Shown here piece after piece: positions 53,090-60,612 of a stretch of 64,000 bases of DNA. Both the position numbers and the translations under genes were made by a program. A model generated the notes under the pieces. That model was not told the DNA's origin. It searched no databases and saw only the letters and a program-made list of their open reading frames with translations. This stretch comes from Polynucleobacter sp. 31A-FELB (GTDB taxonomy: Bacteria > Pseudomonadota > Gammaproteobacteria > Burkholderiales > Burkholderiaceae), in NCBI RefSeq assembly GCF_018882405.1, contig NZ_JACVOO010000008.1, forward strand, positions 1 through 64,000, given 5' to 3'. Position 1 is the stretch's first letter. Each line of letters opens with the position of its first letter.

Positions 53090-53139
53090 ATCGTGTCCTT
53101 TGCTTCAAATGTGGTTTGCTATCTACAATTGTTGCATAT

Positions 53140-55011
53140 ATGCCCATGCTCCCCGCCATCCGCCAAATCCCTGCTTTCCTGCTCTTAGCCTTTCTGGCTG
53201 GGCTGGCAGTCAATTCGGCCCAGGGTGCCCAGGGGGTTGCTCAGTACGGCAAACCCAAATACGCCGATGGATTTAGCCATTTTGACTATGTGAATCCCAA
53301 TGCTCCTAGGGGTGGCACGCTCATATTGCCTAATCCTGATCGGCGGACAAGCTTTGATAAGTTCAATCCATTCACGCTACGCGGTGTGGCTGCCCCTGGC
53401 GTAGCCCAGTTGATGTTTGAATCTTTGGCGGTGGGTAGTGCGGATGAGGTCTCTAGCGCCTATGGTCTGATTGCGGAAGATATCCAAGTGGCATCCGACA
53501 AGATGTCGGTCGTGTTTCGGATTCGTCCTGAGGCGAAGTTTTCAGATGGCAGTGCGATCTTGGCTGGCGATGTAAAGCATAGCTTTGACACTTTAATGAG
53601 TTCACTCGCTAATCCGCAATTCAAAACGGTGTATGCCGACGTGAAGCAGGCGGTGGTCCTCTCTGATCGCGTAATCCGTTTTGATTTTAAGAATCGCAAT
53701 CCTGAGTTGCCAGTCATGGTGGGTACTCTGCCGGTATTCTCTCGCAACTGGGGTAAGAAACCTGATGGCACGATCACGCCGTTTGATAAGTTGACCTTTG
53801 AGTTGCCAATAGCAAGTGGCCCTTATGTGATCGAGTCTTACAAAGCCGGCAAGACCATGATCTTTAAGCGCAACCCAAATTACTGGGCTGATCAAGGTGG
53901 TAAGACACTCAATGTCCGAGTCGGTTTTTATAACTTCGATCGCGTGAACTACAAGCTCTATAGTGATGATGCCGTTCGCCTAGAAGCCTTTAAGGCTGGG
54001 GAGTTTGATGCTCTAGTGGAATACCGCGCAAAGAATTGGGCAAAGAGCTATGTTGGACCAAGATTTAATGACGGTACTTTAGAAAAGAAAGCCTTTCTCA
54101 ATCACAACGGCGCAGGCATGCAAGGTTTTGCAATGAATATGCGTAGGCCGATTTTTCAAGATCCACGTGTTCGTCAAGCTTTGGGCTATGCGCTCGACTT
54201 TGAGTGGTTGAACCGTCAACTCTTCTTTGAGCAATACAGTCGTATTAATAGTTACTTTACGAACAGCGATCTCAGCGCCAATTTTGATGGCCCTCGTAAA
54301 CCCACCGAAGCGGAATTGAAATTACTCAAGCCTCTCAAAGCGCAATACCCTAAGTGGGTGCCTGATGCAGTCTTTGGTCCGATGCCTGCGGCTCCTTCAA
54401 CTGCCTCACCCGATAGCTTGCGTCAGAATTTGCGCAAGGCGCGTGACTTATTGGCTCAGGCTGGATGGCAATATCGTGACGGTGCTTTGCGCAATATGCA
54501 GGGCGAGCCTTTCCGTTTTGAGATGGTCGAGGACGGCCCATTTTTCTTGAGGGTGATTTCATCCTATGTACGCAATTTAGAGAAGCTGGGTATTCAGGTA
54601 GATATTCGGACAAGTGACTTTGCGTTGCATCAGAAGCGCATGGATGAATACGACTTCGACATGACGACTATTCGTTTCCCTGATTCACAAAGTCCTGGCA
54701 ATGAGTTGTGGGATCGGTTTGGTAGTCAAGCTGCTAAAGAAAAAGGATCTGACAATGTGATCGGGATTCAGTCTCCCGTGGTCGATGCCTTGGTGGATGC
54801 GGTTGTCAAAGCCCAGACACGTGAAGAGTTGCGTGCAGCCACTAGAGCTTTAGATCGTGTTCTTTGGAATAGTTATTACGTGATTCCGCAGTGGTACAAC
54901 CCGACACACCGAATCGCGTATCGTAAAGAGATGCGCTATCCAGAACCTCCTTTGTATTACACCGCTGAATCTTGGATTCTGCTCAATTGGTGGAAAGAGG
55001 GGGCGCGCTAA
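53140..55011 (+). CDS. yejA: ABC transporter periplasmic binding protein, YejA type
   Basis: About 623 aa. A signal peptide (AFLLLAFLAGLAVNSAQGAQ) precedes a family 5 solute-binding protein of the YejA branch; FSHFDYVNPNAPRGGTL and the domain ending IPQWYNPTHRIAYRKEM are typical. It binds oligopeptides for YejBEF. I prefer the ATG at 53140 over the open frame from 53116; 53146 is also possible. The stop TAA overlaps the yejB ATG (TAATG). Confidence 0.92.
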   Translation: MPMLPAIRQIPAFLLLAFLAGLAVNSAQGAQGVAQYGKPKYADGFSHFDYVNPNAPRGGTLILPNPDRRTSFDKFNPFTLRGVAAPGVAQLMFESLAVGSADEVSSAYGLIAEDIQVASDKMSVVFRIRPEAKFSDGSAILAGDVKHSFDTLMSSLANPQFKTVYADVKQAVVLSDRVIRFDFKNRNPELPVMVGTLPVFSRNWGKKPDGTITPFDKLTFELPIASGPYVIESYKAGKTMIFKRNPNYWADQGGKTLNVRVGFYNFDRVNYKLYSDDAVRLEAFKAGEFDALVEYRAKNWAKSYVGPRFNDGTLEKKAFLNHNGAGMQGFAMNMRRPIFQDPRVRQALGYALDFEWLNRQLFFEQYSRINSYFTNSDLSANFDGPRKPTEAELKLLKPLKAQYPKWVPDAVFGPMPAAPSTASPDSLRQNLRKARDLLAQAGWQYRDGALRNMQGEPFRFEMVEDGPFFLRVISSYVRNLEKLGIQVDIRTSDFALHQKRMDEYDFDMTTIRFPDSQSPGNELWDRFGSQAAKEKGSDNVIGIQSPVVDALVDAVVKAQTREELRAATRALDRVLWNSYYVIPQWYNPTHRIAYRKEMRYPEPPLYYTAESWILLNWWKEGAR

Positions 55012-56087
55012 TGCAGGGGCAAATGTGGTCTTACATTTTCAAGCGTGTGCTCTTGATGATTCCTACTTTGCTGGGTGTACTAACGCTCACGTTTGCTGTG
55101 GTGCAATTTGTGCCTGGCGGTCCAGTCGAGCAGTTGATGCTCGAGCTCAAAGGTAAGGGCGATGCCGCAGTGAGTGGGGCAGAGTCTTCTGGCGGCGGCA
55201 GTAACTATCGTGGCCGTCAAGGTGTAGATGCTGAGCGTTTGGCTGAGGTCAAGGCTTTATATGGTTTTGATAAGCCGCCAGTAGAGCGTTATTTCATGAT
55301 GCTGAAGCGTTTTGCGCAATTTGATTTGGGCGAGAGTTACTACCAACATCAAAGTGTTTGGCAATTGGTGGTTTCTAAATTACCAGTATCTATCAGCATT
55401 GGTTTATGGACCTTCTTCTTAACCTACTTAGTATCGATACCCTTGGGTATTGCTAAAGCGGTTAGAGACGGCTCTCGTTTTGATGCCATCACTAGCACGA
55501 TGATTCTGGTGGGTTATGCCATTCCAGGATTTGTATTGGGTGTTCTGTTGCTGGTTATCTTTGGCGGTGGTAGTTTCTTGCAAATTTTTCCACTACGCGG
55601 ACTAACTTCAGATAACTGGAGTGAGTTGAGCATGATGGGCAAGGTGATGGATTATTTATGGCATTTAGTTTTACCAATCACCGCTTCAGTCTTAGGAAGT
55701 TTTGCGGTCATCACCATGTTGACGAAGAATTCCTTTTTAGAAGAGATTCGCAAACAGTATGTATTAACTGCGAGAGCTAAAGGTCTAACCGAGAAACAAG
55801 TGCTCTGGAAGCATGTGTTCCGCAATGCGCTCCTGCCTTTGGTAACTGGTTTCCCGGCAGCGTTCATTGGGGCCTTCTTTACTGGTTCGCTGCTGATCGA
55901 AACCCTGTTTTCTTTAGATGGCTTGGGTTTGCTGTCTTATGAGTCCGTGATGCGACGTGACTACCCAGTAGTTTTTGGAACGCTCTATCTGTTCACACTG
56001 ATTGGCTTGTTTACTAAATTGATCTCCGATCTTTGTTATGTCTATATTGATCCACGCATTCAGTTTGGTGCAGGAGGTGGATCATGA
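55011..56087 (+). CDS. yejB: Peptide ABC transporter permease, YejB type
   Basis: 358 aa. Begins YIFKRVLLMIPTLLGVLTLT, the usual first helix, and has the long N-terminal insertion of the YejB group. The EAA loop is seen as TARAKGLTEKQVLWKHVFRN. Its ATG shares one base with the yejA stop and its own stop overlaps yejE by 4 bases, so all four yej genes are coupled. Confidence 0.94.
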   Translation: MQGQMWSYIFKRVLLMIPTLLGVLTLTFAVVQFVPGGPVEQLMLELKGKGDAAVSGAESSGGGSNYRGRQGVDAERLAEVKALYGFDKPPVERYFMMLKRFAQFDLGESYYQHQSVWQLVVSKLPVSISIGLWTFFLTYLVSIPLGIAKAVRDGSRFDAITSTMILVGYAIPGFVLGVLLLVIFGGGSFLQIFPLRGLTSDNWSELSMMGKVMDYLWHLVLPITASVLGSFAVITMLTKNSFLEEIRKQYVLTARAKGLTEKQVLWKHVFRNALLPLVTGFPAAFIGAFFTGSLLIETLFSLDGLGLLSYESVMRRDYPVVFGTLYLFTLIGLFTKLISDLCYVYIDPRIQFGAGGGS

Positions 56088-57109
56088 GTCGCTGGCATCG
56101 TTTTAAAAACAGCCGCTTGGGTTATGCCAGCCTCTGGATTTTTATGATTCTGTTTGGTCTATCGATGTGCGCCGAGCTCATTGCGAATGACAAGCCCTTG
56201 ATCGTGCGCTATCAAGGTAAGTTTTATTTTCCGATTGTGAAATCTCAACCTGAAAAAGTATTTGGTGGTGATTTTGCAACTCCAACTGATTTCTTGGATC
56301 CAGATATTCGTCACAATATTACGAGCAATGGTAACTGGGCGATTTACCCGCCTATTCCTTATAGCTATGAGACGCTGAACTACTTTTCAAAAGTACCCAA
56401 TCCTGCACCGCCATCATTTGATAACTGGTTAGGCACAGATGATCGTGGGCGCGATGTCCTGTCCCGTTTGATTTATGGATTTCGCCTGTCGATCTTGTTT
56501 GGCTTGGCGCTCACTATTGTGGGGGTTAGCGTAGGCATCATCACCGGCTCTTTAATGGGTTTCTTTGGCGGTAAGTTTGATCTGGTTTCTCAGCGCTTGA
56601 TTGAGATTTGGTCGGCGATGCCGGAGTTATATCTACTCATCATTTTTGCCTCTATCTTTAACCCAAGCATTTGGCTCCTGATTATTTTGTTAGCTGCTTT
56701 TGGATGGATGGGTTTGTCCGACTATGTGCGTGCAGAGTTTTTCCGCAATCGCGCTTTAGAGTACGTTCGTGCTGCTAGGGCATTGGGCCTAACGAATTTG
56801 CAAATCATGCGCCGTCATATCTTGCCGAATAGCTTGACCCCAGTAATTACCTTCCTTCCTTTCAGAATGAGTGCAGCCATTTTGTCGCTCACGAGTTTGG
56901 ATTTCTTGGGTTTGGGTGTTCCGCCGGGCACGCCGAGCCTTGGCGAGTTACTCTCTCAAGGTAAGAGTAATTTAGATGCGTGGTGGATTTCACTATCGAC
57001 TTTTGTGGTCTTGGTTGCCACCTTGCTCTTGCTCACCTTTATGGGTGAGGCCTTGCGCGATGCGTTTGATTCTCGTAAGTCGGGCGCGATGAATGGAGGG
57101 CGCTCATGA
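56084..57109 (+). CDS. yejE: Peptide ABC transporter permease, YejE type
   Basis: 341 aa. Second permease of the transporter. LIANDKPLIVRYQGKFYFP near the N-terminus is characteristic of YejE, and NWLGTDDRGRDVLSRLIYG is the common OppC-type motif. The EAA loop is AARALGLTNLQIMRRHIL. It overlaps yejB and yejF by 4 bases each. Confidence 0.94.
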   Translation: MSRWHRFKNSRLGYASLWIFMILFGLSMCAELIANDKPLIVRYQGKFYFPIVKSQPEKVFGGDFATPTDFLDPDIRHNITSNGNWAIYPPIPYSYETLNYFSKVPNPAPPSFDNWLGTDDRGRDVLSRLIYGFRLSILFGLALTIVGVSVGIITGSLMGFFGGKFDLVSQRLIEIWSAMPELYLLIIFASIFNPSIWLLIILLAAFGWMGLSDYVRAEFFRNRALEYVRAARALGLTNLQIMRRHILPNSLTPVITFLPFRMSAAILSLTSLDFLGLGVPPGTPSLGELLSQGKSNLDAWWISLSTFVVLVATLLLLTFMGEALRDAFDSRKSGAMNGGRS

Positions 57110-58785
57110 GCGAAGTGAATAACTCTAGCAAGCCGGCAGCCCCTTTACTTCGTTATGAAGATTTCTCAATCTCTTTTGGTTCGGGCCGGCGTGAGAAATT
57201 TGCCGTTAGTCACCTTGATCTTGAGATTGGCGTGGGAGAGCGTGTTGCTTTGGTGGGGGAGTCTGGCTCAGGCAAGACGCTGACTGCCTTGGCGCCATTA
57301 CGCCTTGAGTCTGAGGGTGCAAAAACATCTGGTCGAATTCTGTGGAGTAGCAAGAATGCGCACGCCGGCAATTCACCAGTCAATTTACTAGATTTGCCAA
57401 TACAAGATATTCGTGAGATTCGCGGCCGTGAGATTGCAATGGTCTTCCAAGAGCCCATGACTGCGCTCAATCCCTTGTTTACCATTGGCAATCAAATTGT
57501 TGAAGCAGTACAGATATATCAGCCTTTAATCTCCAAGGCTGATTGCATGTCTGCAGCAATTGATCTTCTCAAGAAGACGGGCATCCCAGAGCCAGAGAAG
57601 CGCTTCCATTCTTATCCCCACCAATTGTCCGGTGGACAGCGTCAACGCGCCATGATTGCAATGGCGTTGGCGTGCAAACCCAGGTTGTTGATTGCGGATG
57701 AACCAACTACTGCTTTAGACGTTAGTCTGCGTTTGCAAATTTTGGATTTACTTAAAGAGCTGCAGGAAGAGTCCAAGGATCATGGTGGCATGGCGATTCT
57801 GTTGATTACCCATGATCTCAATTTGGTAAAACATTTTGCACAAAGGGTTGCTGTATTAAACCAAGGCAATCTGATGGAGGTCGGGCCAACAAAGCAAGTA
57901 TTCGAGCATCCAGATAATCCTTATACAAAAGCTTTGGTAAATAGCGCGCCTGTACGTGATCTAGCTCCAGTAATGCCACTCGCACCAGTGTTATTAAAGA
58001 CGGACAACTTATCTGTTTCTTATCCAGGCGCTGAATCTACTTCTTGGTTTAAAAAGTCTCCACGTCATCAAGTCTTGCGTAAGGTTGGTTTTGAGCTTAA
58101 GCAAGGGCAAACCATTGGTGTTATTGGGGAGTCTGGCTCCGGCAAGACAACTTTAGGTATGGCGGTCTTAGGTTTATTGGGTGACTCTGCCGCAGAAATT
58201 ACTGGTGATGTGGACGTGCTTGGTAATGATTGGCAAAAGTTAAAGCCAGTAGAGCGCCGAGCTATGCGATCTAGTTTGCAGGTTATTTTTCAGGATCCAT
58301 TTGGCTCTCTCTCGCCGCGTATGAATGTGATGCAAATTGTTTCGGAGGGTTTGGATGTGCACTTTCCCAATTTATCTGCAGCGGAGCGTGAGACTCGCGT
58401 ATTGGATATTTTGCGAGAAGTTGGAATTGATCGCTCGGCTCTGACGCGATATCCCCATGAATTTTCTGGTGGCCAAAGGCAACGCATTGCGATTGCGCGC
58501 GCTTTGATTCTCAAGCCGCAGATCTTAGTCTTGGATGAACCTACCTCAGCCTTGGATGTGTCGATTCAGAAACAAGTGCTCGCCTTGCTGACTGAGTTGC
58601 AGAAAAAATATAACTTGGCTTACCTGATGATTAGTCATGATTTGGCAGTGATTCGGGCGATGTCCCATGAAGTCATGGTGCTTAAGGCGGGCAGGGTGGT
58701 GGAGTTTGGTGATACTGAGACCCTGATTAAGCATCCTCGCCAGATCTATACAAAAGAGCTTTTTGCTGCTGCTGAGTTGACCTAA
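57106..58785 (+). CDS. yejF: Peptide ABC transporter ATP-binding protein, YejF type (two ATPase domains)
   Basis: 559 aa. Two ATPase domains in one chain, the equivalent of OppD and OppF. Walker A GESGSGKT occurs twice (near 45 and 342), with signatures LSGGQRQRAMIAMAL and FSGGQRQRIAIARAL. Powers YejAB/E peptide import. Last gene of the coupled unit. Confidence 0.95.
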   Translation: MSEVNNSSKPAAPLLRYEDFSISFGSGRREKFAVSHLDLEIGVGERVALVGESGSGKTLTALAPLRLESEGAKTSGRILWSSKNAHAGNSPVNLLDLPIQDIREIRGREIAMVFQEPMTALNPLFTIGNQIVEAVQIYQPLISKADCMSAAIDLLKKTGIPEPEKRFHSYPHQLSGGQRQRAMIAMALACKPRLLIADEPTTALDVSLRLQILDLLKELQEESKDHGGMAILLITHDLNLVKHFAQRVAVLNQGNLMEVGPTKQVFEHPDNPYTKALVNSAPVRDLAPVMPLAPVLLKTDNLSVSYPGAESTSWFKKSPRHQVLRKVGFELKQGQTIGVIGESGSGKTTLGMAVLGLLGDSAAEITGDVDVLGNDWQKLKPVERRAMRSSLQVIFQDPFGSLSPRMNVMQIVSEGLDVHFPNLSAAERETRVLDILREVGIDRSALTRYPHEFSGGQRQRIAIARALILKPQILVLDEPTSALDVSIQKQVLALLTELQKKYNLAYLMISHDLAVIRAMSHEVMVLKAGRVVEFGDTETLIKHPRQIYTKELFAAAELT

Positions 58786-58870
58786 AGGCCAATCGAAGTA
58801 GGTTCAGCAGGGCGCTAAATTGGTGCATTCATGCACCGCAATACGAAATATCCTATTCAAAACAATGAGT

Positions 58871-58884
58871 TAGCCCTTGGGCTA
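58871..58884. repeat. TAGCCC/GGGCTA dyad upstream of the NlpC-type gene
   Basis: TAGCCC-TT-GGGCTA is a perfect 6-bp dyad. A near-identical dyad lies at 60613-60626 and a weaker one at 2706-2719. It is 85 bases after the yejF stop and just before the probable promoter of the next gene. Role unknown. Confidence 0.4.
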
Positions 58885-58888
58885 GCAC

Positions 58889-58917
58889 TTGGTGAAATAG
58901 ACCTTCTTTGTTAGAAT
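58889..58917 (+). promoter_or_regulatory. Probable promoter of the NlpC/P60-fold gene
   Basis: TTGGTG (58889-58894) and TAGAAT (58912-58917) are spaced 17 bases. The -10 box ends 3 bases before the first ATG and 6 before the second, so a leaderless transcript is likely. Confidence 0.45.
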
Positions 58918-58920
58918 GAA

Positions 58921-59607
58921 ATGATGTCCTTTCAAAAAGACCTTCTATCTCGCTTAGTAAAGCAAATGCCATTGGCTTTGCTGACTGCATTGATGCTTGC
59001 CGCCAATCCGGTAATGGCGGTGGACGCTACTCCTGACGCTGCAAAGGATGCTTCAGTTGAGGTGGCTAAAGAAACGCCTAAAGAAAGCATGTTCCAGGCG
59101 GGCAAGTCTTACTTTGCTCGCGTATCAGATCGCCTGGCGGATTCGGTTACTGGCAAATCGGATGAATTGATTAACCGCGCTATGGAAGTGATTGGTGTGC
59201 GTTATCGCTGGGATGCGGAGTTGCCCCAATCTGGTTTAGACGGCAGTAGTTTTGTTGGCTATGTCTTCAAAGACAAATTAGGTTTTTTATTGCCGCGCAA
59301 GTCCACTCAAATGAGTCGTGTCGGCAAAGCTATTACTCGCGAAGAATTGCAGCCTGGTGACTTAGTGTTCTTCAACACCATGCGCTTAACCTTCTCTCAT
59401 GTCGGCATTTATGTTGGCGACAATAAATTTATTCACTCCCCATCTAAAGGTACTAGCGTACGCGTTGATGATCTTGGTAGTCTCTACTGGGATAAACGTT
59501 TCGATGGTGCTCGCCGATTAGATGGCAGCGACAACTTGGGTGATGCAGAGCGTCAAGAGTTGTTAAACGAAGTGAATAAGCTCAAGCGAAAATCTCGCAA
59601 CCTCTAA
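58921..59607 (+). CDS. NlpC/P60-fold protein lacking the catalytic cysteine
   Basis: 228 aa. A signal peptide (cut near NPVMAVDA) leads to an acidic linker and an NlpC/P60 domain (about 83-205). Active members cut cell-wall peptides with a Cys-His-polar triad, the Cys in a DCSG motif. Here the motif reads GLDGSSFVGYVF: G108 (codon 59242-59244) replaces the cysteine, and the whole protein has no cysteine at all. Both histidines remain (SHVGIYVGDNKFIHSPS). It is thus probably a non-enzymatic peptidoglycan-binding or regulatory protein. A second ATG at 58924 may be the true start. Confidence 0.85.
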   Translation: MMSFQKDLLSRLVKQMPLALLTALMLAANPVMAVDATPDAAKDASVEVAKETPKESMFQAGKSYFARVSDRLADSVTGKSDELINRAMEVIGVRYRWDAELPQSGLDGSSFVGYVFKDKLGFLLPRKSTQMSRVGKAITREELQPGDLVFFNTMRLTFSHVGIYVGDNKFIHSPSKGTSVRVDDLGSLYWDKRFDGARRLDGSDNLGDAERQELLNEVNKLKRKSRNL

Positions 59608-59608
59608 T

Positions 59609-60565
59609 CTAGAAGCTTGCTGCTAGACCAATAGAAGTGCCTCGGACGTTCTGTCCAAACTGATACCGAAAAACTAATCTCACCCTACTAAACATGGGGT
59701 CTGAAGCGCTACGATCAATCTCTACTCCAGTACCCACGGAGGAAAGCGAGTCAAATCCAAGGGCGCCACGGAGCTGACCTAAAAACTCAGTATGCGCCAC
59801 CTCAAAGACGGCTCGCAAAGGTCTCTCTAATACCGTTAGAGGGGTAGGGTATCTGGCACGAGCCCACAATCCTAAGCTCTGAGAGTCTGCAGAGCCTTGA
59901 ACCGCAGCAGAGCTGTCAAAAGTATTGATGGCGATATTGGTGTAGCGCAATTCGGCGTCGTATTCACGTTCAGGTTTGTAGTCCTCATAGTCCAGCATCA
60001 ATGAACCACCAGCACCATACGCATTCATGCGCCCTTTGTTGAGAAACTGTAAATCTGCCCCAGTATTGTTTTGAATATAGCGACCCGCAATGGAGAGATC
60101 GCTCTCGACATGACCGAGCATGAAATTGGCAATTGGACGAATGCGTAAGTTATCAGTCAGCGGAAAGTCCCAGCCAATCCCGCCTGTGCCTGTAATGCCA
60201 TTCCAATGAACGGGCACTGTGACACTGGTGCTGCCAATGCCATCGGTAAACGTCGGGTTATAGCGATTAACAGCAATTGTGCCTTCAAGGTAGAGCGGGA
60301 AGTTGGCGCTAATGCGATCGCCTCCCCCAAGAGAAATCATTTGTAAATTTTGATTGTCTCCACCTTTGTCAGTGATAGATAGCGAACCAGTAGTGACGTC
60401 TGGGGTAAGTGAATAACCCGTGATGGTCATGAAGGCGTCGGTACGCTTTTTAAGGTAGTTATTTGCCCCCGCAGAGAATTGGCCACTTTGCGCATAAATT
60501 TGCTGTGCTTGCATTGTTATTGCCAATGCAACTAAGACTTTAAAGAGGGTGGGAATGGTTTTCAT
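59609..60565 (-). CDS. Putative outer-membrane beta-barrel protein
   Basis: About 318 aa from the ATG at 60565 (a GTG at 60571 is in frame). A signal peptide ends QQIYAQS. The rest has alternating strands and ends with RVRLVFRYQFG...GLAASF, with the terminal Phe typical of outer-membrane barrels. Aromatic-flanked strands recur, such as PLYLEGTIAVNRY and RPLRAVFEVAHTEF. No named family is recognised. It ends one base after the convergent NlpC-type stop. It lies downstream of the patatin gene, 58 bases away. Confidence 0.72.
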   Translation of the reverse strand: MKTIPTLFKVLVALAITMQAQQIYAQSGQFSAGANNYLKKRTDAFMTITGYSLTPDVTTGSLSITDKGGDNQNLQMISLGGGDRISANFPLYLEGTIAVNRYNPTFTDGIGSTSVTVPVHWNGITGTGGIGWDFPLTDNLRIRPIANFMLGHVESDLSIAGRYIQNNTGADLQFLNKGRMNAYGAGGSLMLDYEDYKPEREYDAELRYTNIAINTFDSSAAVQGSADSQSLGLWARARYPTPLTVLERPLRAVFEVAHTEFLGQLRGALGFDSLSSVGTGVEIDRSASDPMFSRVRLVFRYQFGQNVRGTSIGLAASF

Positions 60566-60612
60566 AAACACGTTGCACCGAATCCTAAATCAATCACCCT
60601 CACTTGGGAAGT

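Follow-up and report, generated by a model that had tools for sequence, protein, structure and literature searches.

NlpC/P60 peptidases require the catalytic cysteine. One of the closest described systems is MepS (Spr), the murein DD-endopeptidase/LD-carboxypeptidase of Escherichia coli (NCBIfam NF008096; PDB 2k1g, 7v6s, 7v6t, 7v6u, 8xud and 8xup), whose gene presumably lies near yejABEF in that species. NlpC/P60 proteins without catalytic activity are already known. RipD (Rv1566c) of Mycobacterium (PDB 4jxb and 4lj1; NCBIfam NF033743) is non-catalytic and binds peptidoglycan, binding having been kept after catalysis was lost, according to the accessible part of one report (PMC12067865), and the accessible part of another (PMC6628586) likewise gives it as a precedent for binding by a dead NlpC/P60 protein. 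Both the cysteine and the catalytic histidine are lost in RipD (Ala83 and Ser132), and the third residue is Glu144; the Cys-His-Glu triad of RipA and RipB also contains a glutamate (PMC12067865, same part). Inactive peptidoglycan hydrolase pseudoenzymes also appear, in the portions of the open-access literature consulted, in Clostridioides spore germination. In addition, overproduced E. coli MepS(C68A) promoted growth on mecillinam, though not without native mepS, and the authors proposed that Prc was overwhelmed or saturated (PMC5549755, accessible part).

We analyzed a stretch of 64,000 nucleotides (the window) that encodes a MepS-like protein without the cysteine. In the open-access literature, we found no dead MepS-type ortholog that has become fixed in most members of a genus, with a single mapped loss and its histidine pair intact, and no mention of Polynucleobacter NlpC proteins. 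The part of the main text available from a P. asymbioticus proteome paper contained nothing on a MepS-like protein (PMC7522526).

A MepS-like gene next to a peptide importer

The features of the locus are listed in Table 1. Translation of the open reading frame gave the motif D107-G108-S109-S110, no cysteine in the whole protein, and His160 and His172 as the only histidines. Pfam PF00877 was covered over its full profile with 91.5 bits against a cut-off of 23, which places the protein in the domain family. In the PDB sequence alignment with E. coli MepS (8xud), LDGSSFV was paired with IDCSGFV, and H160 and H172 were paired with histidines of MepS. Compared with a competent C40 peptidase, the catalytic histidine and the third polar residue are present as His160 and His172, and Gly108 replaces the nucleophilic cysteine of DCSG. 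The lipobox cysteine of MepS-type proteins is also missing, the protein having no cysteine at all.

Table 1. Features of the pseudo-endopeptidase locus in the window
Feature	Positions	Strand	Remarks
yejABEF-like peptide ABC importer (SBP_bac_5, two permeases, double ATPase)	53116–58785	+	Directly upstream; yej names by resemblance, no curated model
Promoter-like TTGGTG-17-TAGAAT	58889–58917	+	Ends 6 nt before ATG 58924; close-relative alignment and crude scan
Cys-less MepS-like NlpC/P60 pseudo-endopeptidase	58921–59607	+	228 aa when read from ATG 58921; probably translated from 58924 (M2)
Probable Sec signal peptide	58924–59019	+	By eye from translation: end near ...NPVMA (residue 33); lipobox Cys absent
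Variable periplasmic linker, about residues 34–76	59020–59148	+	dN/dS high compared with the domain
NlpC/P60 domain, residues 92–199	59194–59517	+	Pfam PF00877; AF2 fold matches those of MepS and RipD
Codon 108, GGC (Gly), at the catalytic-Cys position	59242–59244	+	Translation, ortholog and PDB alignments
His160, catalytic-type His kept	59398–59400	+	In 149/149 genus orthologs and 43/43 other-genus loci
His172, third-position His kept	59434–59436	+	In 149/149 genus orthologs and 43/43 other-genus loci
C-terminal helix, residues 208–227	59542–59601	+	AF2 helix, pLDDT about 80

An AF2 model of the protein was built from an alignment of 62 of the best 80 named-record loci listed. The mean pLDDT was 78, with values of 89–97 per ten-residue block over residues 81–200; the signal-peptide region was modeled with low confidence as helices at 6–14 and 16–25. 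Tied within 1 Z, an autolysin domain of Clostridioides difficile (7cfl; Z 20.2, 1.6 Å across 121 residues) and MepS of E. coli (7v6u; Z 19.6, 2.3 Å across 127 residues) matched the modeled domain, and the top Foldseek rows were MepS. The non-catalytic RipD (4lj1) followed with Z 16.9 and 1.6 Å over 116 residues. The AF2 model alone cannot demonstrate a loss of activity. The earlier note had described the motif, the length of 228 residues, the absence of cysteine, and the retention of both histidine regions and the rest of the fold; translation, PF00877, and the PDB alignment confirmed the former points, and the predicted match to MepS (7v6u) agrees with the last.

In 144 of the 147 genus loci (143 by a stricter rule), the gene is preceded on its own strand by yejF, and in the three loci without yejF the match starts at the first bases of the contig. 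The same arrangement was found in 42 of 55 loci from other genera. Judged by this synteny, the window gene and that of the active-looking enzyme of related genera are orthologs, and the window gene is not a spare paralog. The earlier note had called it a paralog that might control an active C40 peptidase elsewhere in the genome; the first part does not hold, but a paralog with intact DCSG does exist. This paralog, the only other NlpC/P60 match in the window genome, is a probable lipoprotein (lipobox identified by eye) with intact FDCSG, and it adjoins a gene that we take to be phoH-like. FDCSG was intact in all 13 paralog loci read, all of them from genomes of the Cys-less clades.

Two further observations concern the surroundings of the gene. 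The intergenic region at 58822–58884 contains two short inverted repeats, GGTGCATTCATGCACC and TAGCCCTTGGGCTA, partly kept in close relatives, the second of which, TAGCCCTTGGGCTA, has a terminator-like score on the minus strand. Between the pseudoenzyme and patatin genes lies an outer-membrane beta-barrel-like gene (59609–60571, minus strand) with a weak Autotransporter match below the cut-off, a relative of which occurs only in the loci of some of the closest relatives.

The start codon is probably that at 58924 rather than that at 58921, because for most of the closest relatives the alignment begins at the second methionine, and the promoter-like box stands at a constant distance from it. 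Close relatives carry TTGGTG-17-TAGAAT or near variants 6 nt before the ATG corresponding to 58924 (GTG in locus L017). A standard promoter scan with a threshold of 9 of 12 did not detect the box. We used a crude rule, which demanded 8 of 12 matches and a box end 5–7 nt before an in-frame start. Sorted by the residue at position 108, this rule was positive in 46 of 107 Gly loci, 14 of 16 loci of the main Ala clade (where the first hexamer was poor), 2 of 15 Cys loci, none of the 11 loci of a second Ala clade with large genomes, and 1 of 43 loci from other genera. It is possible that a leaderless transcript is made from a promoter of the gene itself.

Distribution and timing of the cysteine loss

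NlpC/P60 matches were present in 151 of 151 Polynucleobacter genomes, and 147 orthologs were readable. Three genomes with a single weak match in the score range of the paralog were excluded, and in a fourth genome the locus read was the paralog; removal of this locus, of one further paralog locus, and of one duplicate reduced 150 loci (106 Gly, 27 Ala, and 17 Cys) to 147. Position 108 was Gly in 105, Ala in 27, and Cys in 15 of these orthologs, so that 132 of 147 lacked the cysteine, and close orthologs aligned at the codon of Gly108 lacked it too. For the counts of invariance, selection, and site changes, two genus loci were added to give a set of 149. The total lack of cysteine, first noticed in the window protein, is true of that protein but not a rule of the lineage: among the 132 that lack the cysteine at position 108, 87 had none anywhere in the open frame, and 45 had one to three at other places in it. 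The large-genome Ala clade (11 loci, genomes of 2.3–3.1 Mb, placed in the genus by the genome grouping used) mostly reads FDASAFVK and has a deletion at Pro102.

In other genera of the family, 178 genomes were searched, of which nine very small ones had no match. Of the 169 with a match, 54 contributed the 55 loci read (two loci from one genome), and every one of these carried the cysteine (52 TGC and 3 TGT). Twelve of the 55, all with the cysteine, were of doubtful orthology and did not enter the analyses of selection and phylogeny. One Cys-bearing ortholog from a genome of 1.9 Mb had an in-frame TAG within the matched stretch, and the gene may be decaying there. Among the best 80 named-record homologs listed, 73 had the cysteine; the seven without it were four Polynucleobacter records and three MAGs assigned to Burkholderiaceae or Betaproteobacteria, whose proteins were 77–90% identical to that of the window. 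Among the sequences compared, the loss is, as far as these alignments go, confined to Polynucleobacter.

A tree was built from rpoB and the start of rpoC of 24 genomes, after six of 30 genomes without an rpoB match had been left out. Within the genus, the Cys-bearing clade was basal, and the large-genome Ala clade was joined to the main Ala/Gly clade with an SH-aLRT of 99.6 and an ultrafast bootstrap of 100. Since the Cys clade is basal in this tree, parsimony requires one Cys to Ala loss and one Ala to Gly change, which supports a single loss followed by the change to Gly within the main clade. The gene's own tree also united the main clade and the large-genome Ala clade (0.96), and the position of the Cys clade was not fixed by it. 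In a tree of the flanking genes, the large-genome Ala clade was placed with the Cys clade, a grouping that would imply two losses, with a support of 0.15. Two independent losses were rejected as a candidate: the flanking-gene tree was undecided, and the AU test on rpoB and rpoC rejected both alternative arrangements (p 0.002 and 0.004). Two bases must change to turn a Cys codon into an Ala codon, and the intermediate was absent from the sequences read.

Selection on the domain after the loss

We estimated dN/dS pairwise by the Nei-Gojobori method over residues 76–200, using pairs with dS of 0.2–1.5. The median values, which are rough because the pairs share common history and a dS near 1 is partly saturated, were 0.015 in the Gly clade (984 pairs), 0.016 in the main Ala clade (26 pairs), 0.039 in the large-genome Ala clade (9 pairs), 0.028 in the Cys clade (39 pairs), and 0.138 in other genera (700 pairs). 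In the Gly clade, the domain value was lower than those of the neighboring genes yejF (0.028) and patatin (0.041), and linker residues 35–75 reached 0.20 compared with 0.015 for residues 76–200. These values strongly support very strong purifying selection on the domain since the loss.

Codon changes were counted by parsimony on the 106 Gly-clade leaves of the gene tree. Codon 108 had changed 20 times, His160 23 times, His172 23 times, and Tyr95 11 times, with no replacement at any of them. As all changes at these codons were silent, the old active site is still under selection. This continued selection on a dead site separates the gene both from a decaying gene and from RipD.

The conservation was not uniform along the domain. 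Of 68 sites near-invariant in 58 Cys-bearing sequences, 41 were unchanged in all 134 Cys-less sequences, and the conserved core that has been kept includes Tyr95, Asp107, Ser109, His160, and His172. Ten of the sites were widely changed in the Cys-less sequences, and seven of the ten (G98, G99, P102, C108, G110, R113, and T119) fell within residues 97–119 (Fisher p 0.002, descriptive only, as this stretch was picked post hoc and the sequences are non-independent). The stretch beside the lost nucleophile, from about 97 to 119, has been remodeled and the core retained. The ancestral motif with the cysteine alone replaced, DASGFVR, is still present in 11 of the 16 members of the main Ala clade. 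The C-terminal tail was alike in the aligned sequences of the Cys clade and the main clade and was shorter in four sequences of the large-genome Ala clade.

The earlier note had proposed a lineage of pseudo-hydrolases and had allowed for a recent mutation or a sequencing error instead. A single base change from TGC to GGC would indeed suffice for the latter, but Cys-less orthologs in 132 of 147 cases, from separate genomes, refute an error or a private mutation, and the domain dN/dS of 0.015, together with 20 changes and no replacement at codon 108, rules out a degenerating gene. We therefore give a private mutation, an error, or a decaying pseudogene practically no weight, and the same counts strongly support a real lineage of pseudo-hydrolases.

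Candidate roles and comparison with known systems

The genomes contain other wall enzymes. M23 peptidases were found in 30 of 30 genomes searched, with two to three matches per genome in the Cys-bearing clade and two to eight in the Cys-less clades at E 0.001, some of the weak ones lying in rpoC-sized frames. An S41 protease gave one match in 29 of the 30 genomes and two in the remaining one. Within these two families and 30 genomes, we saw no gain or loss that tracked the loss of the cysteine; a compensating gain of an endopeptidase or loss of a protease was rejected as a candidate, as M23 and S41 were present in all 30 genomes with no clear contrast between clades. With a DCSG paralog and M23 enzymes present, cutting by the MepS-like protein could be lost and the cell would still have endopeptidases.

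We regard it as somewhat more probable than not that the protein is a fixed pseudoenzyme that binds the stem peptides of peptidoglycan without cutting them, perhaps regulating active endopeptidases. In the ancestor of most Polynucleobacter, the MepS-type endopeptidase encoded beside yejABEF lost its nucleophilic cysteine, a single time according to the rpoB/rpoC tree, and the gene was retained. Given the absent nucleophile, catalysis would be gone, and given the signal peptide, the protein would be exported to the periplasm. There, stem peptides or muropeptides may be held uncleaved in the old groove, by which cross-links would be protected or marked, or active endopeptidases (the DCSG lipoprotein paralog and M23 enzymes) would be tuned. 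The higher dN/dS of the large-genome Ala clade relative to the Cys clade counts against this explanation, as do the lack of an M23 or S41 change that follows the cysteine loss and the flanking-gene grouping (support 0.15) with its two losses, and the kept histidines could serve stability instead of binding.

A rather unlikely alternative, though the strongest of the others, is that the dead MepS acts as a natural decoy: by occupying a periplasmic S41 protease of the Prc/CtpA type, or the adaptor of that protease, it would stabilize active endopeptidases. The mecillinam effect of E. coli MepS(C68A) (PMC5549755, accessible part) speaks for it, as do the Cys to Ala replacement that appears to have been the first step in Polynucleobacter, just as in C68A, the S41 match in every one of the 30 genomes, and the promoter-like box, which suggests expression independent of yej. 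A decoy, however, leaves the invariance of both histidines and the conserved core unexplained, and the C-terminal tail varies between clades. The histidines would be dispensable for a pure decoy, which is why we ranked ligand binding above it. We also considered a periplasmic capture protein that passes murein peptides to the adjoining YejABEF-like importer, which seems improbable. The near-constant position of yejF and the import of muropeptides by Agrobacterium YejBEF with the binding protein YepA (PMC9790009, accessible part) would fit such a role, but the synteny is shared by 42 of 55 Cys-bearing loci of other genera; it predates the loss and is no mark of a new role. Moreover, the muropeptide receptor of Agrobacterium is not YejA, YepA is reported only from Alphaproteobacteria in the part of that source available (PMC9790009), and a promoter of its own may serve the gene.

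Least probable among the functional readings, and quite unlikely, is that the protein is still catalytic through Ser109 or Ser110, or through a water or metal bound by the histidine pair. The invariance of His160, His172, and Ser109 speaks for it, yet Ser109 is just as invariant in the Cys-bearing enzymes, and Ser110 is missing in 8 of 107 Gly sequences, 12 of 16 of the main Ala clade, and 11 of 11 of the large-genome Ala clade. A new nucleophile at 109 or 110 was rejected, as neither residue is both common to all Cys-less members and new to them. Returning to the non-cutting, stem-peptide-binding pseudoenzyme, a bolder form of it may be entertained speculatively, with a small chance of being right: a dedicated non-cutting regulator, in effect a natural and fixed decoy like MepS(C68A), would have kept the stem-peptide groove as a sensor, and competition between dead and living NlpC/P60 proteins would set wall growth in very small cells.

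The loss of the nucleophile of a wall hydrolase can here be placed, by the rpoB/rpoC tree, on one branch within a genus that has cultured members. With basal Cys-bearing orthologs, a later change from Ala to Gly, and an active site under selection, the role of a dead endopeptidase becomes testable by ortholog swaps, which bears on the regulation of cell-wall opening.

Among the known systems, MepS is the nearest by family: NF008096 was the top curated-family match (97.6 bits), MepS was also the top PDB sequence match, and the two share the fold and a histidine pair at equivalent places. In contrast to MepS, the window protein lacks both the catalytic and the lipoprotein cysteine, and its 97.6 bits lie below the equivalog cut-off of 186, so that it falls outside the equivalog. 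With RipD it shares the fold, and the Cys to Ala replacement of RipD is matched in the Ala clades of Polynucleobacter. Unlike RipD, with its double loss, the Polynucleobacter protein has lost only the cysteine and kept both histidines invariant; it is an ortholog of an active-looking enzyme whose cysteine went missing inside a single genus, and it scored 38.5 bits against the NF033743 cut-off of 215, which places it outside that family. The laboratory mutant MepS(C68A) carries the identical first substitution and is a dead MepS with an effect in vivo (PMC5549755, accessible part), but the mutant was engineered and overproduced, whereas the Polynucleobacter form is natural, fixed, and long conserved. 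The Cys-bearing orthologs of other Burkholderiaceae (Cupriavidus, Paraburkholderia, Pandoraea, and others) mostly occupy the same locus, with yejF upstream and patatin on the opposite strand; they read LDCSGFVR, whereas the Cys-less Polynucleobacter orthologs read LDGSSFVG, LDASGFVR, or FDASAFVK.
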